Source: a virus. Taken from it: a stretch of 64,000 nucleotides of DNA. How positions within the stretch are numbered: the first letter of the stretch is position 1; each line of letters begins with the position of its first letter. The notes under the pieces were generated by a model that was given only the letters and a program-made list of their open reading frames with translations, was not told the origin of the DNA and did no database searches. This document shows, piece by piece, positions 35,148 through 64,000 of the stretch. The translations under genes were made by a program, and so were the position numbers. The DNA is taken from positions 1 to 64,000 of the IMG/VR virus record IMGVR_UViG_3300021373_002342; one strand, 5' to 3'.

Positions 35148-35224
35148 TGGCGCGGCTGAAGAGATTCGAACTCCTGACCCTTGGTTTCGTAGACCAATGC
35201 TCTATCCAGCTGAGCTACAGCCGC
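35148..35224 (-). tRNA. tRNA-Arg (anticodon ACG)
   Basis: 77-nt cloverleaf with acceptor GCGGCTG/CAGCCGC, anticodon stem TTGGT/ACCAA around loop CTACGAA, T-arm GGTTCGAATC-type loop, and encoded CCA. Reads CGU, and CGC/CGA after inosine conversion. Confidence 0.97.
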
Positions 35225-35234
35225 GTAAAATAAT

Positions 35235-35263
35235 ATTATAGTTGACTTTCATCTAAATGTCAA
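35235..35263 (-). promoter_or_regulatory. Sigma70 promoter immediately upstream of tRNA-Arg
   Basis: TTGACA, 17-nt spacer, TATAAT on the minus strand, 11 nt before the tRNA-Arg 5' end. The spacer contains an inverted copy of the -35 region (TTGAC...GTCAA), a possible operator. Confidence 0.8.
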
Positions 35264-35266
35264 CCA

Positions 35267-35340
35267 TGGAGTGAGAGGTGAGAATCGAACTCACATACAA
35301 GGATTTGCAATCCTCTGCGTAACCATTCCGCCACTCTCAC
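35267..35340 (-). tRNA. tRNA-Cys (anticodon GCA)
   Basis: 74-nt cloverleaf with acceptor GTGAGAG/CTCTCAC, anticodon loop TTGCAAA and encoded CCA. Confidence 0.97.
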
Positions 35341-35345
35341 ATAAT

Positions 35346-35422
35346 TGGTCGGGGATGCAGGATTCGAACCTGCGACCTCTCGCTCCCAAAGCGAGCGCAC
35401 TACCAGACTGTGCTAATCCCCG
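35346..35422 (-). tRNA. tRNA-Pro (anticodon TGG)
   Basis: 77-nt cloverleaf with acceptor CGGGGAT/ATCCCCG, anticodon stem CTCGC/GCGAG around TTTGGGA, and encoded CCA. It directly abuts tRNA-Trp. Confidence 0.97.
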
Positions 35423-35496
35423 TGGCATAGGTGGAGGGAGTCGAACCCCCGCTTGCAGTTTTGGAGACTGCCGTGCTACCATAACACTTCACCCAT
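35423..35496 (-). tRNA. tRNA-Trp (anticodon CCA)
   Basis: 74-nt cloverleaf with acceptor ATGGGTG/CACCTAT (one G-U pair), anticodon stem GCAGT/ACTGC around CTCCAAA, and encoded CCA. Its first base follows the U-run of the upstream terminator with no gap. Confidence 0.95.
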
Positions 35497-35528
35497 AAAA
35501 AAAGCCCCTTGCTTTCGCTTGGGGCTTT
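35497..35528 (-). terminator. Intrinsic terminator (attenuator) directly before tRNA-Trp
   Basis: Minus strand AAAGCCCC, a loop containing GCGAAAGC, then GGGGCTTT ending in a run of seven U. The 8-bp GC-rich stem plus U-run is a canonical intrinsic terminator. Its 5' arm (35521-35527) can alternatively pair with GGGGCTT at 35563-35557 in the leader. Confidence 0.85.
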
Positions 35529-35549
35529 CTCACGTACTCAAATATCACG

Positions 35550-35612
35550 TCAAGACAAGCCCCTACCTCTTGGCGGGCACCAACGAAAATTTGTTGTAAC
35601 TGTCTTGAACAT
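35550..35612 (-). CDS. Candidate leader peptide (20 aa) with Arg-Trp-Cys-Pro-Pro codons
   Basis: ATG 35612 is preceded by AGGA at a 7-nt spacing and opens a 20-codon frame ending in TGA at 35550. Codons 10-14 are CGT TGG TGC CCG CCA (RWCPP). These are exactly the codons read by tRNA-Arg(ACG), Trp, Cys and Pro(TGG) encoded just downstream. Codons 11-14 overlap region 1 of an RNA hairpin (35578-35572 with 35567-35559). Stalling there would free region 2 (35563-35557) to pair with the terminator's 5' arm. Finishing translation would place the ribosome over region 2 and allow termination. The peptide itself probably has no function. The mechanism is inferred from sequence only. Confidence 0.72.
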   Translation of the reverse strand: MFKTVTTNFRWCPPRGRGLS

Positions 35613-35641
35613 GTAAGTATCCTTTTGTTTAGTATGTTACT

Positions 35642-35670
35642 ACTATAGTATCAGTATTTAGCTTTGTCAA
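35642..35670 (-). promoter_or_regulatory. Sigma70 promoter of the attenuated tRNA operon
   Basis: TTGACA, 17-nt spacer, TATAGT on the minus strand. Predicted start near 35635. The spacer also contains a TAAATA element. Confidence 0.8.
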
Positions 35671-35678
35671 CCATTATT

Positions 35679-35807
35679 TTAAGATGCAGCGTAAATTATA
35701 AATACCGGTAGCATTAAAATTAGTGCTGGAACTGCCGTTGCCGATATTGCCTCACAAATTTCGCAAACTGATCGATTATTTTTTAATCTAATTATCAAGT
35801 CCGTCAT
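35679..35807 (-). CDS. Tiny membrane protein (42 aa)
   Basis: ATG 35807 opens MTDLIIRLKNNRSVCEICEA followed by one hydrophobic helix (PALILMLPVFIIYAAS). The N-terminal CEIC is a potential metal or disulfide pair. Overlaps the previous gene by 20 nt. Last gene of a run of four tiny overlapping genes. Confidence 0.55.
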   Translation of the reverse strand: MTDLIIRLKNNRSVCEICEAISATAVPALILMLPVFIIYAAS

Positions 35808-35949
35808 TAGTTTTGTTTTCTCCTGTATGTCTGTGTTGTCGTTCGGCTTCTCTCATTGCTAGAACATATCTTAGATCATGCATAGGAGCATATTTTAGGT
35901 AAACAAAAGAAACAATTATACAAGCAATAAAAATTAAGAATTCTATCAT
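35788..35949 (-). CDS. Tiny membrane protein (53 aa)
   Basis: ATG 35949 is preceded by a very strong GAGGAGGAGGA ribosome site. An N-terminal helix (MIEFLIFIACIIVSFVYLKY) is followed by a charged tail (REAERQHRHTGENK). Coupled by ATGA overlap to the 37-residue gene upstream. Small inner-membrane protein of unknown role. Confidence 0.65.
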   Translation of the reverse strand: MIEFLIFIACIIVSFVYLKYAPMHDLRYVLAMREAERQHRHTGENKTNDGLDN

Positions 35950-36059
35950 TCCTCCTCCTCATCCTGCATTGGTTGTTTCCTCCATTGCCAACCTGTATTC
36001 CAAGGTAGTATCCAATAATGAAAAAACCATTCTGCCCAACTTTTTTTCTGTGTTATCAT
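35946..36059 (-). CDS. Tiny aromatic-rich protein (37 aa)
   Basis: ATG 36059 overlaps the upstream stop (ATGA). Trp/Phe-rich (AEWFFHYWILPWNTGWQW), probably membrane-interfacial, with an acidic tail encoded by the purine run that is also the next gene's ribosome site. Unknown role. Confidence 0.55.
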   Translation of the reverse strand: MITQKKSWAEWFFHYWILPWNTGWQWRKQPMQDEEEE

Positions 36060-36163
36060 AGTGGATTTACTCCGTATAAAGTCATCAAAAAAATACTCAC
36101 TAGAAATCCTACTTCAATACGATCTCGTAGTGTACTTTCGTCTAACAGTTTTTTTGATTTCAT
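36056..36163 (-). CDS. Tiny one-TM protein (35 aa)
   Basis: ATG 36163 opens MKSKKLLDESTLRDRIEVGF and one hydrophobic helix (FLVSIFLMTLYGV). No ribosome site is visible. First gene of the four-gene cluster; TATAAT-like and GATAAATA sequences lie just upstream. Confidence 0.55.
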   Translation of the reverse strand: MKSKKLLDESTLRDRIEVGFLVSIFLMTLYGVNPL

Positions 36164-36257
36164 TTATAATTAGTAGTTATAATATATTATAATCATATAT
36201 TATGTTTTTCACGCTTATTTATCATTTAGAATAAAAAAACAGTAGAAAACTGGTAGT
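36164..36257 (-). promoter_or_regulatory. Intergenic region with weak terminator and late-type promoter
   Basis: Downstream of the 92-residue gene a CAGT/ACTG hairpin is followed by seven U (about 36232-36252), a weak terminator. GATAAATA (36216-36223) and TATAAT-like sequences precede the tiny-gene cluster. Confidence 0.4.
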
Positions 36258-36536
36258 TTAAATATTATCAGGCGGAGCATAGGTTTCAGCAAGAGGTTTG
36301 TAACTTGCAGGATATTTAGACAACGTTAATTGTTCACCGTCCCAAATGCACCAAATTGAAGGACGCACACCTACTTTAAATTCATGTACTTCGTAATCTC
36401 CTAAGAGAGACTCAGGAAGTATATTGCCTTTGCGATCTCGCATTGGCCCTGTTCCACTAATGTATGTAACCTGGGCACTACCCCATCTATTCCACGCTTC
36501 ATCAACTAGATCAAAGCAGTCTGTCATGTGTTCCAT
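36258..36536 (-). CDS. Small phage protein (92 aa), unknown
   Basis: ATG 36536 has AAGGAAA 4 nt upstream and begins 15 nt after the tRNA-Ala CCA end, so it is expressed from the tRNA transcript. Soluble, with two cysteines (CFDLVDEAWNRWG, SIWCIWDGEQL). No family recognised. Confidence 0.75.
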   Translation of the reverse strand: MEHMTDCFDLVDEAWNRWGSAQVTYISGTGPMRDRKGNILPESLLGDYEVHEFKVGVRPSIWCIWDGEQLTLSKYPASYKPLAETYAPPDNI

Positions 36537-36550
36537 ACTATTTCCTTATT

Positions 36551-36626
36551 TGGTGGAGCCGACAGGGGTCGAACCTGCGACCTTCTGGATGCAAACCAGA
36601 CGCTCTCCCAACTGAGCTACGGCCCC
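36551..36626 (-). tRNA. tRNA-Ala (anticodon TGC)
   Basis: 76-nt cloverleaf with acceptor GGGGCCG/CGGCTCC, anticodon stem TCTGG/CCAGA around TTTGCAT, and encoded CCA. Confidence 0.97.
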
Positions 36627-36632
36627 TTAAAC

Positions 36633-36708
36633 TGGTGCCGGATGCAAGAGTCGAACTCGCGACCTTCTCATTACAAGTGAGCTGCTCTACCAACTGAGCT
36701 AATCCGGC
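36633..36708 (-). tRNA. tRNA-Thr (anticodon TGT)
   Basis: 76-nt cloverleaf with acceptor GCCGGAT/ATCCGGC, anticodon loop CTTGTAA and encoded CCA. The outermost anticodon-stem pair is a G-A mismatch. Confidence 0.95.
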
Positions 36709-36709
36709 T

Positions 36710-36784
36710 TTATCTTTTTACTCTACAATTAGGACAAAAGTCATTGTATCCTAACTCTGTCTTACATTCTGGACAAGTATTCAT
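36710..36784 (-). CDS. Minimal zinc-ribbon peptide (24 aa) between tRNA genes
   Basis: ATG 36784 opens MNTCPECKTELGYNDFCPNC and ends RVKR. Two CPxC pairs 10 residues apart are exactly a zinc ribbon. AGGA lies about 13 nt upstream. It sits between tRNA-Ser and tRNA-Thr with 1 nt to spare, so it was probably kept deliberately. Confidence 0.55.
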   Translation of the reverse strand: MNTCPECKTELGYNDFCPNCRVKR

Positions 36785-36804
36785 ATTTTACTTATCCTAG
36801 TTTT

Positions 36805-36894
36805 TGGCGGAGAGTGAGGGATTCGAACCCTCGATACGCTTTCACGTATGCACCCTTAGCAGGGGTGTGCTTTCGACCACTCAGCCAACTCTCC
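36805..36894 (-). tRNA. tRNA-Ser (anticodon GCT)
   Basis: 90-nt class II tRNA with a long variable arm, acceptor GGAGAGT/ACTCTCC, anticodon stem CACCC/GGGTG around CTGCTAA, and encoded CCA. Confidence 0.97.
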
Positions 36895-36896
36895 AA

Positions 36897-36952
36897 TTAC
36901 ACTCCTAGTTTATCAGTCTAGTGCAAGTTGCTATGCTTCCTGCTGAGTGTAA
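36897..36952 (-). repeat. Inverted repeat filling the tRNA-Ser/tRNA-Asn spacer
   Basis: Perfect 8-bp arms TTACACTC (36897-36904) and GAGTGTAA (36945-36952) bracket the whole spacer between the two tRNAs. It would form a stem in the precursor RNA, possibly a processing signal. Confidence 0.5.
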
Positions 36953-36955
36953 AAT

Positions 36956-37031
<76 letters not shown>

Positions 37032-49899: not shown

Positions 49900-50451
49900 T
49901 TATGCTGGCTCTAACACGCTTTCAAAATATGCAATAACGTTTTCAGGTGAAGTTTCTCCATATGGATCAGGATCATCTGCTGTGCCTACTGGTTCAACAA
50001 ATGATTTTACTACTACACCATCCTCTAGGACAACTGCAAAACGTCTAGAACGCTTGCCAAAGCCTACATCACTCATATCAATAAACATACCTAAACTATC
50101 AGCAAATTCCCCATTTCCGTCTGGAATAACTTTTACATTTTTAATATCTAGATAATCAGCCCAGGCGTTCATAACAAAGCCGTCATTTACTGATGATACA
50201 TAGATTTCATCTACTTTGTACTTTTCACAGATTTCATCATAGTTTTCTTCAAAGCCTGGTAATTGGTATGTTGAACAGGTTGGAGTGTATGCGCCCGGTA
50301 GGCTGAATACAATTACTCTTTTTCCTGCAAACAAATCTTCTGTTGTGGTGGGAACAAACTCGCCACCAATTGGACAGCCACCATCTTCGGGGGCTTCATC
50401 ACCTTCTCTATACATAAAGGTGATATCTGGGATCACTTTACCTTCAATCAT
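49900..50451 (-). CDS. Peroxiredoxin, Prx5/AhpE-like redoxin (183 aa)
   Basis: Peroxiredoxins reduce peroxides with a peroxidatic cysteine. The motif FSLPGAYTPTCSTYQLPGFE gives Cys59 in the PxxxTxxC context of the Prx5 subfamily, with EICEKYKV (Cys near 73) as a possible resolving or second cysteine. Arg of the active site is probably in RSRRFAVVLEDGVV. AGGAGAT and a sigma70 promoter lie upstream. It probably protects phage replication from host or light-driven oxidants. Confidence 0.9.
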   Translation of the reverse strand: MIEGKVIPDITFMYREGDEAPEDGGCPIGGEFVPTTTEDLFAGKRVIVFSLPGAYTPTCSTYQLPGFEENYDEICEKYKVDEIYVSSVNDGFVMNAWADYLDIKNVKVIPDGNGEFADSLGMFIDMSDVGFGKRSRRFAVVLEDGVVVKSFVEPVGTADDPDPYGETSPENVIAYFESVLEPA

Positions 50452-50572: not shown

Positions 50573-50749
50573 ATGAAGCAAGATCCAGAACTAATAAGTC
50601 AACCCGAGGGCGCGATGATATATGAAAAATGTGTGGTGTGCGGCCATGCATGTCATCACGGGGATGTCTGCAAAGTTAAGGACTGTTCTTGCGGAGTTTG
50701 CTATCACGAAGTTGAAGAGGTAGATGATTATATAAACATGGAGGGCTAA
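50573..50749 (+). CDS. Cys/His-rich zinc-binding protein (58 aa)
   Basis: Cysteine/histidine spacing (KCVVCGHACHHGDVCKVKDC, then SCGVCYHEV) offers seven cysteines and three to four histidines, enough for two metal sites. First gene of a plus-strand cluster; its TAA overlaps the next ATG (TAATG). Unknown family. Confidence 0.72.
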   Translation: MKQDPELISQPEGAMIYEKCVVCGHACHHGDVCKVKDCSCGVCYHEVEEVDDYINMEG

Positions 50750-51027
50750 TGGATTTTTTATCATTAGTAAGTGAAGTAGGATTTCCTATTGCGGGGGCTA
50801 TTGCGGCAGGATATTTTGTATATCTTACACTAAGATTTATTTTAGCAGGTGTTACTGGATCGGTAACTACACTTAAAAATATCATAGGACAACTAGACAA
50901 TCGTGTACAAACAATGAACAACGATCTTGTTAAAATAGATGCACTACTATCTTATACACTTGGTGTAAAACCCAATGTGGATCGTATTGCAGCAAACGAA
51001 GGTAAAGAAGACGCAAGGAGAGATTAA
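50749..51027 (+). CDS. YvrJ/holin-like membrane protein A (92 aa)
   Basis: The N-terminal motif VSEVGFPIAGAIAAGYFVYL resembles YvrJ-type short proteins (VGFPI then one membrane helix). The soluble part contains LDNRVQTMNNDLVKIDALL, a coiled-coil-like helix. It is clearly paralogous to the gene at 51159 (DLGFPIVAALGMGYFIY). One-TM topology plus a helical tail is holin- or UviB/BhlA-like, so lysis is a reasonable guess, not a demonstration. Coupled by 1-nt overlaps on both sides. Confidence 0.78.
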   Translation: MDFLSLVSEVGFPIAGAIAAGYFVYLTLRFILAGVTGSVTTLKNIIGQLDNRVQTMNNDLVKIDALLSYTLGVKPNVDRIAANEGKEDARRD

Positions 51028-51158
51028 TGTCAAATATCGTTGAAATAGTAGATAACATAAAAAATAGATTAGAGCAGAAAGCATTAGAAGAGACGCCGCC
51101 CGAATTAATTAAAATAACAGATAATAGTACTGCTGTTGAATCAAAAAAGAAAAAATAA
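51027..51158 (+). CDS. Small phage protein (43 aa), unknown
   Basis: ATG 51027 overlaps the upstream TAA and follows AAGGAG. A single amphipathic helix (IVEIVDNIKNRLEQKALEET) and a KKKK terminus. The gene stops directly before the second YvrJ-like gene. Confidence 0.6.
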   Translation: MSNIVEIVDNIKNRLEQKALEETPPELIKITDNSTAVESKKKK

Positions 51159-51521
51159 ATGGAAGCTGACCTCGCAACAACAATTAAGGATTTAGGATTC
51201 CCAATAGTGGCAGCACTAGGAATGGGATACTTCATCTACTTCATTTGGAAGTGGGTAACAGAAACTATTGATCCTATTATTGGCGAGACAATGGGAACAC
51301 TTATTAAACTAGTTGACCGTGTTCGTATGTTAGATAATGATATGATACGTATGAATATGAAACTAGCAATGGTGTTAGAGCATAGACATTTATTAGAAGA
51401 AAAATTGTCGCCAGAACAAGTTAGCGAACTAGATGAAATAATTACTCGTTACCAAAGTAGAAATAACGAATTTGACTCTACAGGGAAAGCTCCGGGAGGA
51501 AGCGATGAGCCAAAAAAGTAA
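51159..51521 (+). CDS. YvrJ/holin-like membrane protein B (120 aa)
   Basis: MEADLATTIKDLGFPIVAAL and GMGYFIYFIWKWV form the membrane helix, paralogous to the gene at 50749. LVDRVRMLDNDMIRMNMKLA parallels the partner's LDNRVQTMNNDLVKID. Longer hydrophilic tail. The pair may form a hetero-oligomer such as holin/antiholin; this is inferred from duplication and context. Confidence 0.78.
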   Translation: MEADLATTIKDLGFPIVAALGMGYFIYFIWKWVTETIDPIIGETMGTLIKLVDRVRMLDNDMIRMNMKLAMVLEHRHLLEEKLSPEQVSELDEIITRYQSRNNEFDSTGKAPGGSDEPKK

Positions 51522-51666: not shown

Positions 51667-51831
51667 ATGTTTAAATCTAAATGGGATATATGGTTAGAAA
51701 ACCAAAACGAAGCTACTAGAGTTTATCTAAAAAATCAAATGAAAGAAGATGATAAACTTATTTGGCTCGGTTTTGGTTTAGGCATACCTGTAGGATTATT
51801 ACTAGCAGTTATTATTTACTCTGCGCTATAA
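51667..51831 (+). CDS. Small membrane protein (54 aa)
   Basis: ATG 51667 directly follows the previous stop. MFKSKWDIWLENQNEATRVY precedes a C-terminal helix (LIWLGFGLGIPVGLLLAVII). The 3' end overlaps the convergent cyclase by 20 nt. Possibly part of a lysis or membrane module. Confidence 0.7.
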   Translation: MFKSKWDIWLENQNEATRVYLKNQMKEDDKLIWLGFGLGIPVGLLLAVIIYSAL

Positions 51832-53851
51832 ACACACCGTTCCAATCTTTAGGTAACTTTTGCGTTTTCTGGAACTCACAGCGTTCAATCCACATTTTAT
51901 AATAACCTTCCATTTTTCCATCAAAATGCCGCATAAGTTTATTACATTCTGTAATTGCTTGATCAAACTTTTGTGCTCTATAACAATCGTGCATACGTTC
52001 GTGTATTTCTTTGCTTTTTAGTTGTGCAGGTGTTCCAGCAATATCTAATACTGTATAAATGCTTAGTCCAACACTTTTACCTTTAACTTGTAGATCATCT
52101 ACTTTTAAGTAGAAGAAGTCATTTTTAGTTTCTTTGTAGGTTGATTCTCCGACAAGGAGTAAGCATCCGTATTCTTTACACTTTGACTCAATTCTTGCTG
52201 CTGTGGAAACAGCGTCTCCCAAAACGTCATATGAGTGTCTTTTTGTTGAGCCCATTTCACCAAGATATCCAAGGCCTGTGTTGATACCGGCTCCCATTCC
52301 AACTGGCGGCCTTCCTTCTGCTGTAATTTTGTCATTAAACTTCTCCACTGCTCGCAACATTTCTAGCCCACATTGTACTGCTGTTTTAGGATGATCTGGA
52401 TCTTCTATAGGTGCATTATGTATATGCATACTTGCATCGCCTATGTATTTGATAATCATTCCGTCCATATCAAGTACAGGCTGTGTGATAGCATCCATAT
52501 ATCCATTCATGATTTTTGTTAGTCCTTTAACATCGTCGCCAAAACTTTCACCTAATGGTGTAAAGCCACGCAAGTCTGAGAATAAAATACTAACTTCTCG
52601 TTTCATACCTTCTTTAATAAGTGCAGGATTTTCTTGTAATAGTCTTACTACAGTAGGTGATGCATAACCTGCAAACTGTTTCTTTATCGCTTGTTTTTCA
52701 AGGAACTCACGAACAAACTTAATTCCGTATACTTGTAATGCAATAATAACCAAAGTAATGATAGGTGCTGTAACATCAATTAACGCCTTTTCTGTTGCAA
52801 ACATATGCCATGAGTAAGGTAGTACTCCACTAATTAATCCTACTGTAACTACTAGTCCTACTAGCATCCATCGACTGAGTAAAATCAATAATAAACCACC
52901 TATAGCAAGCCCTACAAGCTCTGCTGTTGGCGCCCAGTCAGGTCGTTGTATATTTGTACCGTTAAACATTGTACCTATTACTGCGGCTTGGGTAGTACCT
53001 GCAAACTGTGCGCCTGTTGCTGTAGGAACAGGATTAGCAATACCTGCTGCTGTTACATCTACAATAACAACTGCTCCGCCAAAATCACTAGGCAAGTCTG
53101 CTACACTTACACGTTTTGATTGTTGACTCCAGTCAATCCACACACGCCCTTCTGAATCAGTAGGTATAGGACCAAACTGAGGTATACGCATTTTTTCTAC
53201 GCCAAACTGATTTAACTTAATTTGAAAGTTTGGATCGCCTGCTATAACACGCAGTGTTTCTAATGCTAAACTAGGATATAATGTGCCGTCAACTACTGCT
53301 ACAGTTGGCATACGTCTTACTACACCGTCAATTTCGGGCTCTGTACTTACAATACCTGCTCCAACACTGCTGTTTTCTAGTATAGGAATATTAGCAATAA
53401 TGCCACCATATGGAAGTATACGATCTAAGTATTGAGGTTGTAGAATTGCTGCTCCAGGATTAATAGGCAAGTTAACAGTTTTATCGCTAGGACGACTTGC
53501 TAGTATTACAGGCAATGCCATCATAGTTTCTGCTAATTCTGTATCACCTCCAAAGCGATCTTTTTCAGGCATCATTACGTTCCATATAACTATACCTGCT
53601 CCTCTGTTATATAGATCTTTTATAATGTCTGAATATATGTTTCTAGGAAAAGGATACTGTCCATAACGTTCTAATGCAGCGTCATCTATTTCTGCTACAT
53701 AGATATTGTTTTCTACAGGTTCCTGATTTACAATAAGTTGATCAAAATAATTTAATTTAACACTTTGGAAAAAAGCAGGCGGTGTCATAAACAAATATAT
53801 TAGAGCAGATAGTGTTAATAATGCCCACCACGGACTTAGTAATTTTTTCAT
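51812..53851 (-). CDS. CHASE2-domain class III adenylate/guanylate cyclase (679 aa)
   Basis: Architecture: N-terminal TM (residues about 8-25), a CHASE2 sensor outside the membrane (about 30-310), two or three TMs (about 315-400), then a class III cyclase domain (about 415-600). The metal aspartates are in SILFSDLRGFT and KYIGDASMHIH. The adenine-selecting Lys (IIKYIGD) and Asp (SYDVLGD) are present, suggesting ATP as substrate. The transition-state Arg is kept (AARIES), but the usual Asn four residues before it is Ser (AVSTAAR). A phage-encoded membrane cyclase is very unusual. It is downstream of the FecR/curli-type genes. Confidence 0.92.
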   Translation of the reverse strand: MKKLLSPWWALLTLSALIYLFMTPPAFFQSVKLNYFDQLIVNQEPVENNIYVAEIDDAALERYGQYPFPRNIYSDIIKDLYNRGAGIVIWNVMMPEKDRFGGDTELAETMMALPVILASRPSDKTVNLPINPGAAILQPQYLDRILPYGGIIANIPILENSSVGAGIVSTEPEIDGVVRRMPTVAVVDGTLYPSLALETLRVIAGDPNFQIKLNQFGVEKMRIPQFGPIPTDSEGRVWIDWSQQSKRVSVADLPSDFGGAVVIVDVTAAGIANPVPTATGAQFAGTTQAAVIGTMFNGTNIQRPDWAPTAELVGLAIGGLLLILLSRWMLVGLVVTVGLISGVLPYSWHMFATEKALIDVTAPIITLVIIALQVYGIKFVREFLEKQAIKKQFAGYASPTVVRLLQENPALIKEGMKREVSILFSDLRGFTPLGESFGDDVKGLTKIMNGYMDAITQPVLDMDGMIIKYIGDASMHIHNAPIEDPDHPKTAVQCGLEMLRAVEKFNDKITAEGRPPVGMGAGINTGLGYLGEMGSTKRHSYDVLGDAVSTAARIESKCKEYGCLLLVGESTYKETKNDFFYLKVDDLQVKGKSVGLSIYTVLDIAGTPAQLKSKEIHERMHDCYRAQKFDQAITECNKLMRHFDGKMEGYYKMWIERCEFQKTQKLPKDWNGVFIAQSK

Positions 53852-53861
53852 TATAATATTC

Positions 53862-53966
53862 CTAAATAAACAGCATACCTATTAAAAATCCAATATTAAG
53901 TCCTAGTGAACAATACAATAAAAGATCTTTCCCATAACTGTAAGGTTGGTATTCTACTTCGTTCAT
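53862..53966 (-). CDS. Tiny membrane protein (34 aa)
   Basis: ATG 53966 overlaps the upstream TGA (ATGA). MNEVEYQPYSYGKDLLLYCS followed by a hydrophobic helix (LGLNIGFLIGMLFI). AGGA of the cyclase lies in its 3' end, so it may couple to cyclase translation. Could be a cyclase partner; only context supports this. Confidence 0.62.
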   Translation of the reverse strand: MNEVEYQPYSYGKDLLLYCSLGLNIGFLIGMLFI

Positions 53967-54262
53967 GCCCTTCTTCCCATTAGTTTTGCTTTTAACGCAT
54001 TCATTTCTGCATCTCTGCTTGTTTTTTCAGATGTTGTACCCAAGTCTTTTTGCGTAACATTTGTTTCCTTGGGTTGGCGTATATCTCTGGGTGTCGAATA
54101 ACGATTAAGTCGTCTGTTCTGTTCTGCAATTCTTCTTCTGATATCTCGAACTTTGGCTTCAAGATCCACGGTACTATTTTGTCTGTCACTGTTTGCCCTT
54201 TCTGCGACTGTGTCTGTCGCGCCCTTATTTCCACAAATGATTCTGCACAACCATTGCCTCAT
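53963..54262 (-). CDS. Small helical protein (99 aa), unknown
   Basis: Arg/Lys-rich helical protein (DIRRRIAEQNRRLNRYSTPR). Two N-terminal cysteines (LCRIICGNKG). TATAAATA ends 4 nt before ATG 54262, with no ribosome site: leaderless class. Coupled to the 34-residue gene. Confidence 0.65.
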   Translation of the reverse strand: MRQWLCRIICGNKGATDTVAERANSDRQNSTVDLEAKVRDIRRRIAEQNRRLNRYSTPRDIRQPKETNVTQKDLGTTSEKTSRDAEMNALKAKLMGRRA

Positions 54263-54400: not shown

Positions 54401-55084
54401 TTAATTATTACGATTAACTGTGACTGAACAGCCACCTAATGTTGCACAAGTACCTGTAATGCTAAATGAATCAGAAGCAGTAGTAACATTTTGAGTAAGA
54501 GTATAATTGTAGGCTCCGCCACCGTTTGTTAGATCTATTGCGGCACTTGCACTTTTGCTTCCACGCTGATCAACATCTACACTATGACCATCACCTGTAA
54601 GAACTATGTCAGCCCACTTTTGTCCGCCGTTGCCTCTTTGCAGTAAATCTACAGTATTACCGTCGCCTTGTATTTCTACAAATCCATCGTGTCCTGCTTT
54701 GCCCATTTGTATGTGTTCAACTGTATTGCTGTCACCATTTACAATGTTTGCTAGATGATGCGGTGCTCCGCCTCCGCCACCTCTATTTTCATCTGTTTGA
54801 TAACTGGCTACTGTGTTTCCATCTCCAGTTACAGTCCAGTATGCTTCGTGGCCGCCTGTTTCGTCTTGATCTATTGTACCATCTTTGTGCATGCCTTGAC
54901 GTATTGTAATATTATTGTTTGGTCCAGTAGAATTCAAACTAACGTAGTTGTCTACACTACGTTGTTGTATTTCTAAGTCGAGATTATCTCCACTTTGTGT
55001 TACATAAATTTCGTTAGCACTACTTTTGAATGATATTAATGTTGTTGTTACCAACACCAAGAAGGTAGTCATAAACTGCTTCAT
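54401..55084 (-). CDS. Curlin-repeat secreted protein B (227 aa)
   Basis: Start ATG 55084 (MKQFMTTFLVLVTTTLISFK, signal peptide to ANEIYVTQ) has GGAG/AAGG upstream. The mature part has curlin-like beta repeats of the form V-x-Q-x-G-x-x-N-x-V/I (EIYVTQSGDNLDLEIQQ, GDGNTVDLLQRGNGG, GDGHSVDVDQRGSKS), plus a Gly-rich loop (RGGGGGAPHH). In curli such repeats stack into amyloid. It overlaps the FecR gene by 65 nt. Likely a substrate of the CsgG pore. Confidence 0.85.
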   Translation of the reverse strand: MKQFMTTFLVLVTTTLISFKSSANEIYVTQSGDNLDLEIQQRSVDNYVSLNSTGPNNNITIRQGMHKDGTIDQDETGGHEAYWTVTGDGNTVASYQTDENRGGGGGAPHHLANIVNGDSNTVEHIQMGKAGHDGFVEIQGDGNTVDLLQRGNGGQKWADIVLTGDGHSVDVDQRGSKSASAAIDLTNGGGAYNYTLTQNVTTASDSFSITGTCATLGGCSVTVNRNN

Positions 55085-56153
55085 CGCCTTGCTCCACGTT
55101 AAGTTTGTATCCATAATTTCCGTTCAAATATAAATCTATTGTATTTTCTACACTAGAATCTTGTCTTTTAATATGCCACATAGGATCTTCGTAATCTAAG
55201 AAAAATCCTGTTTCTTCGTCATAACCTAATTGACGCTGTCTAAAAAATTCTTGGTTTTGAGCTTCTAGTTCGTCTTTAAAACTATTTAGTAATGCTTGAT
55301 TAAGAGCATCTATCATATCAACAAGTATTTCTCTAAGATAATAATCTGCTCCTTTATCTAATTCTGTTACCCAAATATCTTTAATGCTATCAGCTAGTGC
55401 ATCTTGATCAAGATCATCAAATTTTAAAAAATCAAAATCTAATACACTTACACTAGCTTCTTGTTGCAGCTCTTTTTCTATTGCTGCATCAATAGGATCT
55501 TTACGCCTTACAATAAGCATACCAGTAATTTGTGGCTCTGTTAGCTCAACAATAATAGGAGGGCTAGGAGACTTCCAAAGACTTTCTACACGAGTCATTT
55601 GGAATGGTTGATTCATTATAACCATTCCTGCATCATTCTCAACACTAATTTCACCTGTCACGCACTCTAACTCTACGCCGTTTTCTGTTTGACAACTAGG
55701 TAATAGTGTTACATAACTTTCGCCTATTTCATTTACAATCATAGCAAAGTCTGTACCACGAACTGATATAGTTGCAGTTGGTGTTCTTAGTCTTACATTT
55801 TGTCTTGAGTTTTTTGCAATTTGTCCACTTGCATAACGAACAGCACCTAGTGTTGCTCGCATATCTAACACGCCCTTGCCCGAAGCTGGATCATATATAA
55901 ATTCATCAATAACAACTCTACTATGATCAACTACATCAAGTCGAGTGTCATCAACAAAATCAATACGCATTTTACCTGCATTAGTAACGGCTTCGTCCAA
56001 TTGTTGGACGCTAGTGCCTACTTCGTTACCTGCATTGTTTCTGTCGCGTAAGATTTGTCCATCCCCGTCTAGTTCAGTAACGGTACCAATTGAGGACTGT
56101 GCCGCAGATGCGACAGAGAAAAATAAACTAAAGAGTAAGACTAGCACTCTCAT
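55020..56153 (-). CDS. FecR-domain secreted protein (377 aa)
   Basis: A signal peptide (MRVLVLLFSLFFSVASAAQS) is followed by a FecR-type domain (IGTVTELDGDGQILRD, VQQLDEAVTNAGKMRIDFVD, RTPTATISVRGTDFAMIVNE) over about residues 20-190. The C-terminal part is acidic and helical (DLDQDALADSIKDIWVTEL). FecR domains bind ligand or partner proteins in the periplasm. Here it sits between two curlin-like genes and upstream of a CHASE2 cyclase, so it may link secreted fibre status to the cyclase; that is inference. Confidence 0.85.
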   Translation of the reverse strand: MRVLVLLFSLFFSVASAAQSSIGTVTELDGDGQILRDRNNAGNEVGTSVQQLDEAVTNAGKMRIDFVDDTRLDVVDHSRVVIDEFIYDPASGKGVLDMRATLGAVRYASGQIAKNSRQNVRLRTPTATISVRGTDFAMIVNEIGESYVTLLPSCQTENGVELECVTGEISVENDAGMVIMNQPFQMTRVESLWKSPSPPIIVELTEPQITGMLIVRRKDPIDAAIEKELQQEASVSVLDFDFLKFDDLDQDALADSIKDIWVTELDKGADYYLREILVDMIDALNQALLNSFKDELEAQNQEFFRQRQLGYDEETGFFLDYEDPMWHIKRQDSSVENTIDLYLNGNYGYKLNVEQGDEAVYDYLLGVGNNNINIIQK

Positions 56154-56160
56154 ACTAGTC

Positions 56161-56916
56161 TTAATCTATTTGTGTGATGTCAATAGTACTACCGTTTGTT
56201 GTAGCATCAATATCAATAACGTTATCGTATACTCCGCCTTGCGAAATAGTGAATACATTGCCGCCGCCTGTTAAATCTAGATTGATAAAGTGGCCGTTTG
56301 CATCTCCATCGCCGTCTACGTCGATATCAATAATGTTACCTGCATTAGATGCACTCAAACTTACGTCTGTAGCACTAGTTGCGCCTGTTGTGTGTAAACT
56401 TGCACTATTATTAACAACAACTGTGATATCTGAATCAACACCATCAACATCTGCATCAACTACGTTGTCGTCACCTGTTACTGTAAACGCAACTGTTGAC
56501 GAACCTGCGTCTGCATTTTCGCCGATGTAGAATTTAAATGTGTTATCGTCACCTGTAGTTGTAATATCTAGTTGTACACTTTCACAATTTCCTGCACCTG
56601 CTGTTCCTAAACTGTCACACTTCATGTCTACGACATTAGTATTGCCAGTGAAACTCCAAGTACCTGTGTATGAATCACCATTGATGATTGCTGCAATATC
56701 ATTAGTATCACCTGTTTGGGTAATAGAAAATACCATGCTGTCACCTGTTAAAGTCACACCCGTGGTGCTGTCACCAAACTGGTTATTCTGCCCATCTTGA
56801 GTAATGTCTAAATCTAAGCTATCACCAACTTGCGTAATGTAAATATCATTCGCTAGGGCTGGTGTCGCTAGTAGCACTGTCATCAACGCCGATAATGTCA
56901 ACGTCTTCAACTTCAT
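56161..56916 (-). CDS. Curlin-repeat secreted protein A (251 aa)
   Basis: Signal peptide MKLKTLTLSALMTVLLATPALA is followed by NDIYITQVGDSLDLDITQDG and many G-D-x-N-x-V/F repeats (TGDDNTFKFYIG, TGDDNVVDADVDG, GGGNVFTISQGG), ending in STIDITQID. This is curlin-like but longer than CsgA and richer in Asp and Thr. AGGAGGGA lies 4 nt before ATG 56916. The start overlaps the csgG 3' end by 71 nt, so expression is tied to the secretion channel. Confidence 0.87.
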   Translation of the reverse strand: MKLKTLTLSALMTVLLATPALANDIYITQVGDSLDLDITQDGQNNQFGDSTTGVTLTGDSMVFSITQTGDTNDIAAIINGDSYTGTWSFTGNTNVVDMKCDSLGTAGAGNCESVQLDITTTGDDNTFKFYIGENADAGSSTVAFTVTGDDNVVDADVDGVDSDITVVVNNSASLHTTGATSATDVSLSASNAGNIIDIDVDGDGDANGHFINLDLTGGGNVFTISQGGVYDNVIDIDATTNGSTIDITQID

Positions 56917-57718
56917 AACTTCCCTCCTGTTGGAACTTCCAAAGTCCCTTTCTTTCGCCTTCGTAAACTAGTTCAACTACCGCTTGCTCGATAGCAGCCC
57001 TCGTAGCATAATTTACGGGCTCATTAACTGAAAAACCTGTTTCAGTCTCGAGTAACTCAGTTCCCATGTCCAAGAACTTAAATACATCCGCTCCGGACTG
57101 GTGGCTTGCAATCGTTTTTTCGGTTGCAATACTTAAAAGTACTTTCCCTGTACTTACACTTACAATTCTTAAAGAAATTGTAACTGTATCGATGCGATAT
57201 TGCGTATTTGCGCCAACACCTAACCATCTTGCGCCGACACCGCCTACTGCGACATTACTATCGTAGCCAATTATCCCCCCTTCTAATAAAAGTCCTGCAA
57301 ATAGCAAGGGTTTTAATTGTGGTGCATCTGGGCCTTCGTATTGATCTCTAGTCTGTCTTATTAGTTGTCTTTCTTTGATAAGATTGTCCATCCCTACTCG
57401 CTCAACTACGTCAAACCATCCTTCGTCGCCTACATCTTGCAGAGCCTTAATTACCCAAACTTCTCCACCTTGCGTGACTGCTGAGCTTAATTTTGCTACA
57501 CCGTCACTTGGTTTACGTTGTCCTGTTTTATCACTAAACTGATAAACAGCAATAGTAATTTTAGGTCCGTCAATTTTTGGTACATCTTCAAGACGTTGCT
57601 GAATTGGAGATGGTTGTACTATCGGTGATGTCTCTGCTTCCTGTAGTTTTAATAAACTCGGAGTCATTGCACAACCGCCTAGTAGAGCTAAAGATAGTAC
57701 GAGAAACAGATGCTTCAT
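56846..57718 (-). CDS. csgG: CsgG outer-membrane secretion channel lipoprotein (290 aa)
   Basis: CsgG forms the nonameric outer-membrane pore for curli subunits. The lipobox LALLGGC puts the lipidated cysteine at 16. Canonical blocks follow: YQFSDKTGQRKPSD, SSAVTQGGEVWVIKALQD, WFDVVERVGMDNLIKERQ, LLFAGLLLEGGIIGYDSN, GARWLGVGANTQYRIDTV, SLRIVSVSTGKVLLSIATEK. Length matches CsgG. csgF precedes it with a 1-nt overlap and a curlin gene follows. In pelagimyophages CsgG/CsgF genes are known; roles in lysis or uptake have been proposed. Confidence 0.96.
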   Translation of the reverse strand: MKHLFLVLSLALLGGCAMTPSLLKLQEAETSPIVQPSPIQQRLEDVPKIDGPKITIAVYQFSDKTGQRKPSDGVAKLSSAVTQGGEVWVIKALQDVGDEGWFDVVERVGMDNLIKERQLIRQTRDQYEGPDAPQLKPLLFAGLLLEGGIIGYDSNVAVGGVGARWLGVGANTQYRIDTVTISLRIVSVSTGKVLLSIATEKTIASHQSGADVFKFLDMGTELLETETGFSVNEPVNYATRAAIEQAVVELVYEGERKGLWKFQQEGSYEVEDVDIIGVDDSATSDTSPSE

Positions 57719-58170
57719 TAGAAACTAAAGTCTCCTTCTGCCGGAATAGTAATCTCTGTAACTGTGCCATCTTCTTGGACAATAGTTATAGTGATCATTC
57801 CGTCTGCCTTTACCCAAGTAATTGTTGACCCTTCAATCTCTGCTGTGCCTGTGTTAGAACATGTATCTGTGCAATCAGCAAACATAGCGTCAACCATCTG
57901 TTTGGATAATTGGGCATATATTCTTGATTCAACATTCCGAATAAACTTATTCAAAATGCTATTTTCTAGCTCACGTTCAATTCTTCTAGCCTCTGCTTCT
58001 GCCTTGTCTTTAATATCTTGCTTGCGATTGAACGATAATTGTTCTGTACTTAAAACGTGTGCAGAATAACCTTGTCCACTAAAACTTGGGTTTTTAAATC
58101 CCCAAACTAATTCGCTTGCCTGAGCTACAGAGCTCATAAAGAACAACGTGAGTACGGCATATTTAATCAT
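57718..58170 (-). CDS. csgF: CsgF-like curli assembly factor (150 aa)
   Basis: A signal peptide (MIKYAVLTLFFMSSVAQAS) leads to ELVWGFKNPSFSGQGYSAHV, the CsgF N-terminal segment that inserts into the CsgG pore. The middle is a charged helix (KDKAEAEARRIERELENSIL), and the C-terminus is beta-rich and diverged (WVKADGMITITIVQEDGTVT). First gene of the csgF-csgG-curlin-FecR-curlin operon; AGAGGGA and AATAAATA lie upstream. Confidence 0.9.
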   Translation of the reverse strand: MIKYAVLTLFFMSSVAQASELVWGFKNPSFSGQGYSAHVLSTEQLSFNRKQDIKDKAEAEARRIERELENSILNKFIRNVESRIYAQLSKQMVDAMFADCTDTCSNTGTAEIEGSTITWVKADGMITITIVQEDGTVTEITIPAEGDFSF

Positions 58171-58289: not shown

Positions 58290-58538
58290 ATGAAAGATAA
58301 AATGACTGAAGACGAATTACGAGCGGCTGAGCAAGATGCCCTTTGGAGAATATGTGAAGAACTAAGTGCCTATCATGATACAAGGCCTGTGGATTTGTCT
58401 CAAGAAGTTAGCGAATTAGAACAACAAGAGATTGAACGTGCATTAAGAGCGTGTGATGATAATCAAACAAAGGCAGCTAAATTATTAAAACTTAATCGCA
58501 CTACACTTCTTGCTAAAATGAAAAAGTACAATATTTAA
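58290..58538 (+). CDS. Fis-family HTH DNA-binding protein (82 aa)
   Basis: The C-terminal 40 residues (EIERALRACDDNQTKAAKLL, KLNRTTLLAKMKKYNI) match the Fis/NtrC-type HTH_8. The N-terminus is acidic (KMTEDELRAAEQDALWRICE). TAGGAAC lies upstream. It is divergent from the csgFG operon and convergent with the 554-residue gene (4-nt overlap). Probably a DNA-bending regulator; control of the adjacent secretion operon is plausible from position only. Confidence 0.88.
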   Translation: MKDKMTEDELRAAEQDALWRICEELSAYHDTRPVDLSQEVSELEQQEIERALRACDDNQTKAAKLLKLNRTTLLAKMKKYNI

Positions 58539-60232: not shown

Positions 60233-60925
60233 CTATTTTAGGAAATAACATATCCGTGCAGAATTTATCTACATCTGCTTCTGGTAATCCTAAACTTTTC
60301 ATTGTACGTGGAGTGTGCGGATTTTGTTGTTGATTATGACAATAATAGTTTTGTGCGGCAGCAACTAATGGTACTTCACCTGAACCATCGCTTTGACCTA
60401 TTTCATCAAAATATGCACGAAGATTGTTTAATGCTAGTTCTACGATAGCAACTGCTTCTTCTTAGTGTTTACATTACCTGCGGCAACCATTTTATCAGTA
60501 AAAATATTTTTAGCCCACTGCGGAAGCTCACGTTGTTTCTTAGGAATAAAATCTGCTACTGCTTCATAATAGCCTTGTATCATATCATGATCTTCATTGG
60601 TAGTAGGAGAAAAATCATGGAATGCTCCTGTCATTTTATTCTTACCTGCAATCACATCAAAGCCATATATTGGTCCGTCATTATTTAAATTAGGAAAGAC
60701 ACATACATGCATCATCCAAAGGCCTTTGCTATCTCTAGCATCCACAACGTCAATGTGTGCCCTGCGAACACTACTGTTAGCCCACACACGGTTAATCCAA
60801 CCGTTATCAGGTTGGTTAAAAGCATCAAGTCCTTCTTCATTATATTCTGTTGCTTTTTCGTTGAATATATTTATAATTTCGTCTTGACATTCAATTAGTT
60901 TAGTCCAAATAATACTCAAGAGCAA
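60228..60925 (-). pseudogene. Ferredoxin-dependent bilin reductase (PcyX/PebS/PcyA type), frameshifted
   Basis: The first frame (60925-60440) contains the bilin-reductase core: RRAHIDVVDARDSKGLWMMH, VCVFPNLNNDGPIYGFDVIA, AFHDFSPT. It ends in TAG after NVNTKKKQLLS. A second frame, shifted by one base, runs on to 60228 and supplies the missing C-terminus (VAIVELALNNLRAYFDEIGQ, AAAQNYYCHNQQQNPHTPRT, LFPKI), which fits this family. Adding a single A in the AAGAAGAAG run near 60454-60464 restores one frame. It is either a real inactivating indel or a base-call error. The likely start is a TTG near 60925, inside the heme-oxygenase 3' end. The family reduces biliverdin to bilins. Confidence 0.83.
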
Positions 60926-61469
60926 CCTCCATCATTTCTTGAAATAATTCTGTAGCAGATGTAAACACCCATTTGGCTTCTTCTGCTTGTCCGTCGTGTG
61001 TATATGTTCTTAAATTTTCTTTAAGATCTTTTACATCACCTTTAAACTGATACATGCGGCCTTCACCAGGTATCTTCTTTTTAATCATTTGCCCGCCACT
61101 AAGGTCACCCATATGTAGTACATATACGTGTGCCATAAGCAGGTCTTTGTTGTCTTTAATTTCTTCAATTCTATCTAAGTACTTCCAAGTACTAGGTAGT
61201 GTTATTGGTGTCCTATTAGCAATGTCCCAAAGCTCTTGCCAATCATCTTCTATCTTTTTCATTTGTTTGATGTCAAATAATTTTAAATCATCTGCCCAAA
61301 CACCTAACTGATCTAATGCTTCTTCGAGTGCTTCGTACTTCTTCCATTGATTATATAAGTATGTTGCATAAAAATCAGGATTGATTTTACCACTCATTAA
61401 TACTTTGACAAACTCTTGTCTTTCGGCGTTTTGGTGATGCTCCCAAGTTAGCTCTTTTAAATTGCTCAA
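60900..61469 (-). CDS. hemO: Heme oxygenase (189 aa)
   Basis: Heme oxygenase opens heme to biliverdin, CO and iron. The proximal heme ligand is His12 in TWEHHQNAE, and the distal-helix signature MGDLSGGQMIKKK lies near residue 115-127. Length is a little shorter than cyanobacterial HO1. ClpS precedes with no gap and the bilin reductase follows with overlap, so the pair forms a heme-to-bilin pathway like the phage HemO-PcyX or Ho1-PebS pairs. Iron or bilin supply during infection are possible roles. Confidence 0.93.
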   Translation of the reverse strand: MSNLKELTWEHHQNAERQEFVKVLMSGKINPDFYATYLYNQWKKYEALEEALDQLGVWADDLKLFDIKQMKKIEDDWQELWDIANRTPITLPSTWKYLDRIEEIKDNKDLLMAHVYVLHMGDLSGGQMIKKKIPGEGRMYQFKGDVKDLKENLRTYTHDGQAEEAKWVFTSATELFQEMMEVALEYYLD

Positions 61470-61834: not shown

Positions 61835-62293
61835 TTACTCGACTTCGCCGTTAATTACAGGTGAACCAACATTGATGTTGATTTTCTTAGGTTGTAGTTC
61901 TTCAGGTACTTCACGAACTAAAGTAATGTTTAACATACCTAGTTCAAGATTTGCCTGCTCTACTTCCATATGATCTGCAAGTGTAAATTCTCTACGGAAA
62001 TTACGTCCTGCAATACCTTTGTGCAAGTAATTTACATCATCGTCACCCTTTGGTGCTAAACCTTCTACACGAAGAATATTACCCTCTTTAGTAATATCCA
62101 ACTCGTCCATAGCAAAGCCTGCAACGGCAAGTGAGATTACATACTCATCATCAGATATCTGTACAATATTATACGGAGGATATCCTGTTGATTGTGAATT
62201 AGAAAATTGTCTTTCTAATTCGTTAAACATTCTATCAAAGCCAATTGTGGCCCTGTGAAAATGTGGTAGGTCTAAAGTTGTTAGTCTTGTCAT
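61835..62293 (-). CDS. Small heat-shock protein Hsp20/IbpA-like (152 aa)
   Basis: The alpha-crystallin domain is intact: PYNIVQISDDEYVISLAVAG, FAMDELDITKEGNILRVEG, YLHKGIAGRNFRREFTLADH, then LELGMLNITLVREVPEE. The N-terminal FDRMFNELERQF is IbpA-like. AAGGAGA precedes the ATG. Hsp20 genes are common in T4-like marine phages. It holds unfolded proteins for DnaK, which is encoded just upstream. Confidence 0.93.
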   Translation of the reverse strand: MTRLTTLDLPHFHRATIGFDRMFNELERQFSNSQSTGYPPYNIVQISDDEYVISLAVAGFAMDELDITKEGNILRVEGLAPKGDDDVNYLHKGIAGRNFRREFTLADHMEVEQANLELGMLNITLVREVPEELQPKKININVGSPVINGEVE

Positions 62294-62358: not shown

Positions 62359-64000
62359 TTAAGATGCTTCGTCAAACTCTGCATCAATTATATCCTCAGC
62401 TTCAATTGGACCTTCGTCTGTTGCTGCTGAAGAATCTTTTTGCTGTTTAGCCGCCATTACTGCGCCGGCTGCGGTAGCAAACTCCGTGATCTTAGCGTTG
62501 ATAGCATCTGTATCATCGCCTTTAACTGCTTCTTCTAATGCATCACGTGCTTCAGTATAAGCAGTAACTTGTTCTTCTGTTAAGTCTGCTTGCACTTCTT
62601 CAAAGTCACGGTTGGCTTGAGCAATGTGTTGCTCTGCACCATTACGTGCTTCAACAAGGGCTCTACGCTTCTTGTCTTCTTCTGCATTAGCTTCTGCATC
62701 TTTCACCATTTGTTCAATTTCAGACTCAGACAAGCCGCCGTCACTTTGAATAGTTAACTTTTGTTCTTTGCCTGTGCCTTTGTCTGTAGCACTTACACTT
62801 AGAATACCGTTTGCATCAATATCAAATTTTACTTCAATTTGAGGAATACCACGCATTGCTGGTGCAATACCTTCTAAGTTAAACATGCCAAGATGTTTGT
62901 TATCTCTGATAAACTCACGCTCACCTTGTGCTACATTAATTGTAACTGCTGGTTGGTTGTCTTCTGCTGTTGAGAAAACTTGTGACTTTGATGTAGGAAT
63001 AGTTGTATTCTTATCAATCAATTTAGTCATAATGCCACCCATTGTTTCAATACCTAGTGACAATGGAGTAACGTCTAATAATAGTACGTCCTGCTTGTCG
63101 CCTGCTAGTACTGCACCCTGGATCGCTGCACCTGCTGCAACTGCTTCATCTGGATTTACATCCTTGCGTGGAGCCTTACCAAAGTATTTTTCAACAGCCG
63201 TTTGTACTGCTGGCATACGTGTTTGGCCACCTACAAGAATAACTTCGTCAATGTCACTTGGCTTTAGTCCTGCATCTTTAACTGCAACTTTACATGGCTC
63301 AATTGAACGTGCAACAAGGTCATTCACCATTGCTTCGTACTTTGAACGTGTAAGGTTAATAGCCATATGCTTAGGACCACTAGCATCAGCAGTCACATAC
63401 GGAAGGTTAATTTCAGTTTGTTCTGTGCTTGATAGTTCTACTTTTGCCTTTTCTGCCGCTTCCTTCAAACGCTGAAGAGCCATTTTATCTGTCGATAGAT
63501 CAACAGCATCTGACTTTTTAAATTCTGCAATCAAATAGTCAATAATTGCTTGGTCAAAATCTTCACCGCCTAAGAATGTGTCGCCGTTTGTAGCAAGAAC
63601 TTCAAACTGCTTTTCACCGTCAACATCTGATATTTCAATAATTGAGATATCAAAAGTACCACCACCTAAGTCGTATACTGCAATCTTCTTATCACCTTTG
63701 CCGCCTTTATCAACACCATATGCTAGTGCTGCTGCCGTTGGCTCGTTGATAATACGTAGGACTTCAAGACCTGCAATCTTACCAGCGTCTTTAGTTGCTT
63801 GACGTTGCGAGTCGTTAAAGTATGCAGGAACTGTAATAACTGCTTGTGTTACAGGCTCACTTAGATATGCTTCTGCATCTTGTTTAATTTTGCGTAGGAT
63901 TTCTGCACTAATTTGCTGTGGTGCATACTTTTCTTCACCTACTTGTACCCATGCATCTTTGTTGTCTGCTTCGACAATTTTAAAGGGCATGTTTTTGATA
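62359..64000 (-). CDS. dnaK: DnaK/Hsp70 chaperone, N-terminus beyond window (547 aa visible)
   Basis: The visible part begins near residue 115 of DnaK ([17 protein letters not shown]). It contains the ATPase motifs [51 protein letters not shown] and [13 protein letters not shown], the interdomain linker [20 protein letters not shown], the substrate domain, and an acidic tail ([14 protein letters not shown]). It is very close to bacterial DnaK, suggesting host acquisition. No DnaJ or GrpE is seen in the window. A functional Hsp70 in a phage probably assists folding of the giant virion proteins. Confidence 0.96.

Follow-up and report, generated by a model that had tools for sequence, protein, structure and literature searches.

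The window, a stretch of 64,000 nucleotides from a virus genome, carries a phage gene for a membrane-bound class III cyclase with a CHASE2 sensor, embedded in a set of curli and FecR genes. Comparison within this family of aquatic phages and with bacteria indicates that phages exchange the sensor and enzyme halves of this signalling protein, and that a near-invariant residue of its active site changed once, from Asn to Ser, and was then kept. To date, neither the changed active site nor the swapping of halves between phages appears to have been described, and two small membrane proteins, SMP1 and SMP2, appear to be companions of the cyclase that have so far been overlooked. Judging from its sequence, the enzyme is in all probability an active cyclase and probably makes cAMP. 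We consider it an even question whether it forms the output of a complete relay that would run from the phage's own curli fibre through FecR and CHASE2 to cAMP. The features on which the argument draws are listed by position in the window.

50749-51027, plus strand: SMP1, small membrane protein of 92 aa (phrog_18771, E 1.8e-31)
51159-51521, plus strand: SMP2, small membrane protein of 120 aa, SMP1 paralogue (phrog_18771, E 3.5e-26)
51812-53851, minus strand: CHASE2 - transmembrane - class III cyclase protein, 679 aa (Pfam CHASE2 and Guanylate_cyc; AlphaFold2 mean pLDDT 89.7)
52073-52603, minus strand: cyclase catalytic domain, residues 417-593 (Pfam; structural match to CyaB)
52205-52207, minus strand: Ser549 codon, at the transition-state Asn position (alignment, tree)
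52673-52933, minus strand: transmembrane helices and signalling helix, residues 307-393 (AlphaFold2 helices)
within 52673-52933, minus strand: sensor/output recombination junction, near residues 380-400 (jump in sliding identity)
52883-53809, minus strand: CHASE2 periplasmic sensor domain, residues 15-323 (Pfam)
53963-54262, minus strand: small ORF of 99 aa between CurB and the cyclase, resembling by eye a small gene at the same place in some related phages
54401-55114, minus strand: CurB, curlin-repeat protein (Pfam Curlin_rpt, E 2.5e-8; synteny)
55020-56153, minus strand: FecR-domain protein with signal-peptide-like N-terminus and curlin-like C-terminus (Pfam FecR, E 1e-6; PupR-like fold, Z 15.4)
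55026-55205, minus strand: FecR C-terminal beta domain, residues 317-376, ending in a curlin-like N-x-I-x-I-x-Q strand (model and motif)
56161-56916, minus strand: CurA, curlin-like fibre subunit (synteny; homology to annotated Melnitz and HTVC008M curlin proteins)
56846-57718, minus strand: CsgG, outer-membrane secretion pore (Pfam, E 1.8e-51)
57718-58170, minus strand: CsgF (Pfam, E 6e-17)
58290-58538, plus strand: Fis-family (HTH_8) DNA-binding protein of 82 aa, divergent from csgF (Pfam, E 8.5e-12)

The window is part of a 92,205-base IMG/VR virus record that has eight tRNA genes and encodes proteins of the tail fibre and the virion; the virion proteins are most similar to their counterparts in T4-like phages of Synechococcus, for example S-TIM54. 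The tRNA genes (Arg, Cys, Pro, Trp, Ala, Thr, Ser, Asn) form a cluster at 35148-37031 on the minus strand. Among 50,697 phage records searched by tblastn, full-length relatives of the cyclase were present only in the cultured Methylophilales phages Melnitz (53% identity) and Pelagibacter phage HTVC008M (34%), and a scan of viral contigs yielded a further 75 IMG/VR loci with the gene (47-81%). The closest cellular relatives, at 29-41% identity, are alphaproteobacterial proteins from Bradyrhizobium, Methylobacterium and relatives. A first-pass annotation of the window had called the gene a phage-encoded membrane cyclase and had named homologues confined to bacterial contigs as a sign of chimeric assembly; isolate phage genomes and many viral contigs carry the same gene, and that identification stands.

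The curli/T8SS set in the window consists of CsgG, CsgF and a curlin-repeat subunit. The neighbourhood of FecR and curli-type genes reported earlier is thus specified as csgF, csgG, two curlin-like genes and FecR, with CurA giving no Pfam match of its own. The order csgF, csgG, curlin, FecR, curlin, cyclase recurs in nearly every viral locus with enough flanking sequence, and some loci have the cyclase gene in the opposite orientation to the curli genes. CsgE had no match in the record containing the window, which may be a fragment, or in nine related records including two complete phages; the E. coli control was matched. In some phages the second curlin gene is separated from the cyclase by genes for large exported proteins of 635-788 aa without a Pfam match, possibly additional fibre or surface proteins (L011:6849-8756 and L057:7570-9936). 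T4-type late promoters (TATAAATA, CTAAATA) were no more frequent than chance, and a search for riboswitches and other RNAs returned tRNAs only.

This gene set is not new as such, because a pelagiphage module with T8SS/curli, FecR and adenylate cyclase genes was published in mSystems in 2022 (PMC9599517). According to the available passages of that paper, its content and order are those of the window (CsgF, CsgG, curlin, FecR, curlin, cyclase), it has no CsgE, for which the window gave no match either, an alphaproteobacterial origin was proposed, and the module is expressed in marine metatranscriptomes. The cyclase genes of Melnitz and HTVC008M were also already annotated as cyclases, and on both counts the novelty claimed in the first-pass annotation was overstated. 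The same passages are silent on the Asn-to-Ser change, the shuffling of sensor and output, and the curlin-like end of FecR. The Melnitz paper covers the curli pore and not the cyclase, and proposes a lysis role for CsgGF as secretin or pinholin (PMC9004378). In the first 45 kb of phage 023Pt_psg01 (MW574966) there is no annotated curli, FecR or cyclase gene.

Two SMP genes (50749-51521, plus strand) and the Fis-type gene flank the module, all three missed in the first-pass annotation. Each SMP has one hydrophobic segment. Two copies occur in 69 of the 77 cyclase loci, and those that depart from this are on contigs no longer than about 16 kb. A separate scan that started from SMP1 recovered 80 loci, with both copies in 79 and a cyclase in all 32 of those of at least 15 kb. 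Among phage records, SMP2 matched only the six Melnitz and HTVC008M records, and neither protein was found near bacterial CHASE2 cyclases. Searches of Pfam, PHROGs, NCBIfam and PADLOC returned no function for either and detected no holin family. In HTVC008M and Melnitz the SMPs immediately precede csgF, the place at which the published podovirus modules are said to have one or two histidine kinases (PMC9599517); at 92 and 120 aa the SMPs are too short to hold a kinase, though they may be the genes so named there. In the window, the place before csgF is occupied by the Fis-type gene on the opposite strand. Of 77 cyclase loci, 14 have a homologue of it inside or close to the module, at times in antisense orientation between csgG and the first of the curlin genes; the protein is a candidate local regulator.

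The FecR protein probably serves as the partner of the CHASE2 sensor rather than as an iron regulator, because FecR genes also adjoin bacterial CHASE2 cyclases. In FecR and PupR themselves, such domains relay a signal from the outer to the inner membrane. The model of the phage protein (pLDDT 82.6) matches the PupR periplasmic signalling domain over 136 residues at Z 15.4, so that a PupR-type fold is a confident prediction; a weaker match is to 5ix9, a cell-surface anchoring domain (76 residues, Z 6.6). It shares the periplasmic signalling fold with the FecR/PupR anti-sigma regulators but lacks their anti-sigma part: neither a cytoplasmic anti-sigma domain nor a transmembrane helix ahead of the FecR domain was found, and the signal-peptide-like helix runs straight into the FecR beta domain. 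At its other end, the motif N-x-I-x-I-x-Q, defined only after the sequences had been inspected, occurs in 32 of 34 phage FecR proteins (mean 2.8 after shuffling) against one of 32 bacterial ones, and a double-strand pattern in 24 of 34 phage C-termini against none of 139 comparison windows from elsewhere in these proteins. Since the motif is post hoc and Pfam Curlin_rpt has no match on the phage FecR, we treat the curlin-like end as a lead.

In bacteria, FecR lies near the CHASE2 cyclase in 32 of 80 loci, and CsgG or CsgF in none of the 80 fetched flanks. With FecR detected by a phage FecR model in one of the two counts and by Pfam in the other, FecR adjoins the cyclase in 11 of 20 sampled loci against about 0.4 expected by chance from a density of ~0.84 per Mb in the 20 genomes (77 in ~92 Mb). 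All 10 bacterial neighbours checked by Pfam are FecR proteins, and some are fused to cadherin-like, Ig-like or RTX parts where the phage protein has its curlin-like end. The pairing is also on record: FecR accompanies CHASE2 cyclases in Campylobacterota (PMC9239204), and the biofilm-linked Burkholderia BiofilmReg operon encodes a LysM-FecR protein next to a CHASE2 histidine kinase (PMC5192318). That operon resembles the phage arrangement in having FecR adjoin the sensor and differs in its output, a histidine kinase with a response regulator, and in having no described curli genes. The alphaproteobacterial CHASE2 adenylate cyclases, often near FecR, have the phage domain order and keep the Asn in 80 of 80. 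Against the pairing, co-evolution by distance correlation gave a weak result: the FecR-CHASE2 value of 0.39 is only slightly above that for CsgG-CHASE2 (0.32), and of the two ends of the gene it is usually the CHASE2 end that lies closer to FecR.

Taken as a chain, these genes would serve an inner-membrane adenylate cyclase that uses its CHASE2 domain to keep watch on the curli export machine of the phage itself. The infected cell would make the CsgG/CsgF pore and two curlin-like subunits; FecR, exported by its signal peptide, might touch the curlin or assembling fibre with its C-terminus and CHASE2 with its FecR domain; CHASE2 would hand the signal on, by way of the membrane-spanning helices and the signalling helix, to the cyclase dimer, which would alter the cAMP level of the cell; and the effect would be carried onward by a cAMP receptor of the host or by SMP1 and SMP2. 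The two FecR contacts, the direction of control and the downstream target are inferred. A search for cyclic-nucleotide-binding proteins (PF00027) was negative both for the record containing the window and for 14 related phage records, the complete genomes of Melnitz and HTVC008M among them, so a receptor would be host-encoded or of another kind; our literature search found no paper on a cAMP receptor in Pelagibacter. OM43, the published Melnitz host, has no curli genes (PMC9004378), and there would therefore be no host curli circuit to plug into. CHASE2 is a widespread sensor for which, according to PMC5192318, no ligand is known, and the compact, recurrent FecR-CHASE2-curli set suggests one that can be tested, namely a fibre-touching FecR protein. 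The set also bears on the debated function of phage curli.

A signalling cyclase with another input is a less probable reading that we regard as doubtful: CHASE2 would sense the state of the envelope or a small molecule, the enzyme would help to time lysis, and the curli pore would be repurposed, as the Melnitz authors propose for CsgGF (PMC9004378). Several loci, among them L199 and L200, have the cyclase and SMPs and no curli genes in the fetched flank, and the paired small membrane proteins could be lysis proteins. Most loci, however, hold the full fibre set including the curlin-like subunits, the SMPs match no holin family, and the FecR-CHASE2 pairing recurs in bacteria next to adhesin-like proteins.

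The cyclase ORF (51812-53851, minus strand) is intact from ATG through stop, and both Pfam domains score above the cut-off (CHASE2 at 15-323, E 7e-32; Guanylate_cyc, PF00211, at 417-593, E 4e-17). An AlphaFold2 model based on 56 sequences (window, viral and bacterial) shows an N-terminal helix (7-22), a periplasmic domain, membrane and signalling helices (307-327, 329-354, 361-393) and the cyclase domain, with CHASE2 between the N-terminal helix and the subsequent transmembrane helices. This agrees with the sensor, membrane and cyclase parts named in the first-pass annotation. The modelled cyclase domain superimposes on P. aeruginosa CyaB by VIA-align over 189 residues (Z 25.6, rmsd 1.8 Å) and also matches Spirulina CyaC, these solved cyclases scoring at Z 24-26.

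In the active site, D426 and D472 bind metal, K468 and D546 select adenine, R553 is the transition-state Arg, and S549 takes the position of the usual Asn. The metal Asp pair, the adenine pair, the Arg and the fold are among the defining features of class III, and the window protein has these; the loss of Asn leaves family membership unaffected and makes rate and product less certain. The five other residues, described as retained in the first-pass annotation, are indeed invariant in an alignment of 153 sequences (73 viral, 80 bacterial). That alignment also upholds its claim of an Asn-to-Ser replacement and places no Asn at the site: position 549 is N in 80 of 80 bacterial relatives and, among the viral proteins, S in 62 of 73 and N in 11, a viral ratio that is biased because the scan patterns were derived from the window protein. 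On a cyclase-domain tree built without column 549, Ser549 maps to a single change, in one clade of 40 of the 49 dereplicated phage sequences (SH-aLRT 99), with the N-type phages between the bacteria and the S-type clade; HTVC008M forms a long branch whose placement is unsure. The substitution arose once, within one phage clade.

The change did not come alone. G434, I467, S474, H476 and H478, which surround K468 and D472 in the sequence, are fixed alongside S549 in all 40 dereplicated S-type phages and are absent or nearly so in N-type phages and bacteria. Six fixed positions that set the S-type enzymes apart from practically every bacterial and N-type phage sequence could mean that they use a new substrate or metal and make a messenger other than cAMP, such as cGMP or a pyrimidine cyclic nucleotide, and the cyclase domain has a weak score to Pycsar cyclase models (E 5e-15). 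We nevertheless judge a changed product or mode improbable: the adenine-selecting Lys and Asp, from which ATP as substrate and cAMP as product are deduced, are invariant, the Pycsar (PycC) score reflects the shared superfamily only, and Ma1120 of Mycobacterium avium, with a natural Ala at the Asn position, is an active adenylate cyclase that is harmed by restoring Asn (PMC4215837). PADLOC saw no Pycsar effector among the module proteins scanned.

As Ma1120 works with Ala there, loss of the Asn is no evidence of a dead enzyme. The first-pass annotation had left a choice between cAMP signalling and a decoy of a host sensor; signalling gains from the comparison, and a catalytically dead mimic or decoy is very improbable, its one argument being the substituted residue itself. 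The remaining catalytic residues are invariant across diverged phages, and a cyclase dN/dS with median 0.06 and maximum 0.15 (98 pairs) argues against a dead relic; nothing points to a decoy, and sequence constraint disfavours it.

The sensor and the cyclase domain appear to have separate histories. In 49 phage proteins the CHASE2 and cyclase distances correlate at -0.01, against 0.85 and 0.90 for the halves of each domain and 0.51 between the two domains in 78 bacterial proteins. The N/S state, with its single change on the cyclase tree, needs nine on the CHASE2 tree, and a CHASE2 tree constrained to keep the S-type proteins together as a single clade is worse by 406 log-likelihood units (AU p 3e-100). 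Individual pairs illustrate the same pattern. The window protein and that of L027 are 35% identical in CHASE2 and 91% in the cyclase; L021 and L023 are 68% and 91% identical at the DNA level, with the switch near residue 390; and Melnitz joins an HTVC008M-like CHASE2 (54%) to an S-type cyclase (88% to the window). The HTVC008M protein, a CHASE2-cyclase within the same module as in the window, keeps the Asn and lacks the C-terminal tail. Sliding identity puts the junction at a conserved QKQxIKKQF helix, and from these comparisons we conclude that phages exchange the two halves.

A tentative generalization, which we hold as possible, is that FecR and CHASE2 together form a general two-protein device in the periplasm that senses the export of fibres or adhesins and can be coupled to different outputs, a cyclase in some bacteria and phages and a histidine kinase in others. 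Phages would have captured it to watch their own curli fibre, shuffled its halves, remodelled the active site in the main clade (Ser549, H476/H478 and others) and added a paired SMP partner unknown in cells.

The possibility that the genes are a bacterial operon carried along as a passenger and irrelevant to infection, or a chimeric assembly, is close to negligible: the nearest cellular relatives are alphaproteobacterial, but chimerism is ruled out by isolate phage genomes and shared synteny, the 75 viral loci have that synteny in common, the cyclase is under purifying selection, and the pelagiphage module is expressed, according to the available passages of PMC9599517.

Several other genes lie close to the module. 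A ferredoxin-dependent bilin reductase and a heme oxygenase are adjacent on the minus strand (60440-60925 and 60900-61469), and many related phages also have this pair close to the module (families c6 and c7). At higher coordinates on the same strand are a gene for an HSP20 small heat-shock protein (61835-62293) and an HSP70/DnaK gene (62359-63990; Pfam E 1e-213) that is 67% identical to bacterial-type DnaK and has its start cut by the end of the window. On the other side of the module, a peroxiredoxin/redoxin gene (phrog_2281; 49900-50451, minus strand) is likewise found near the module in several related phages.
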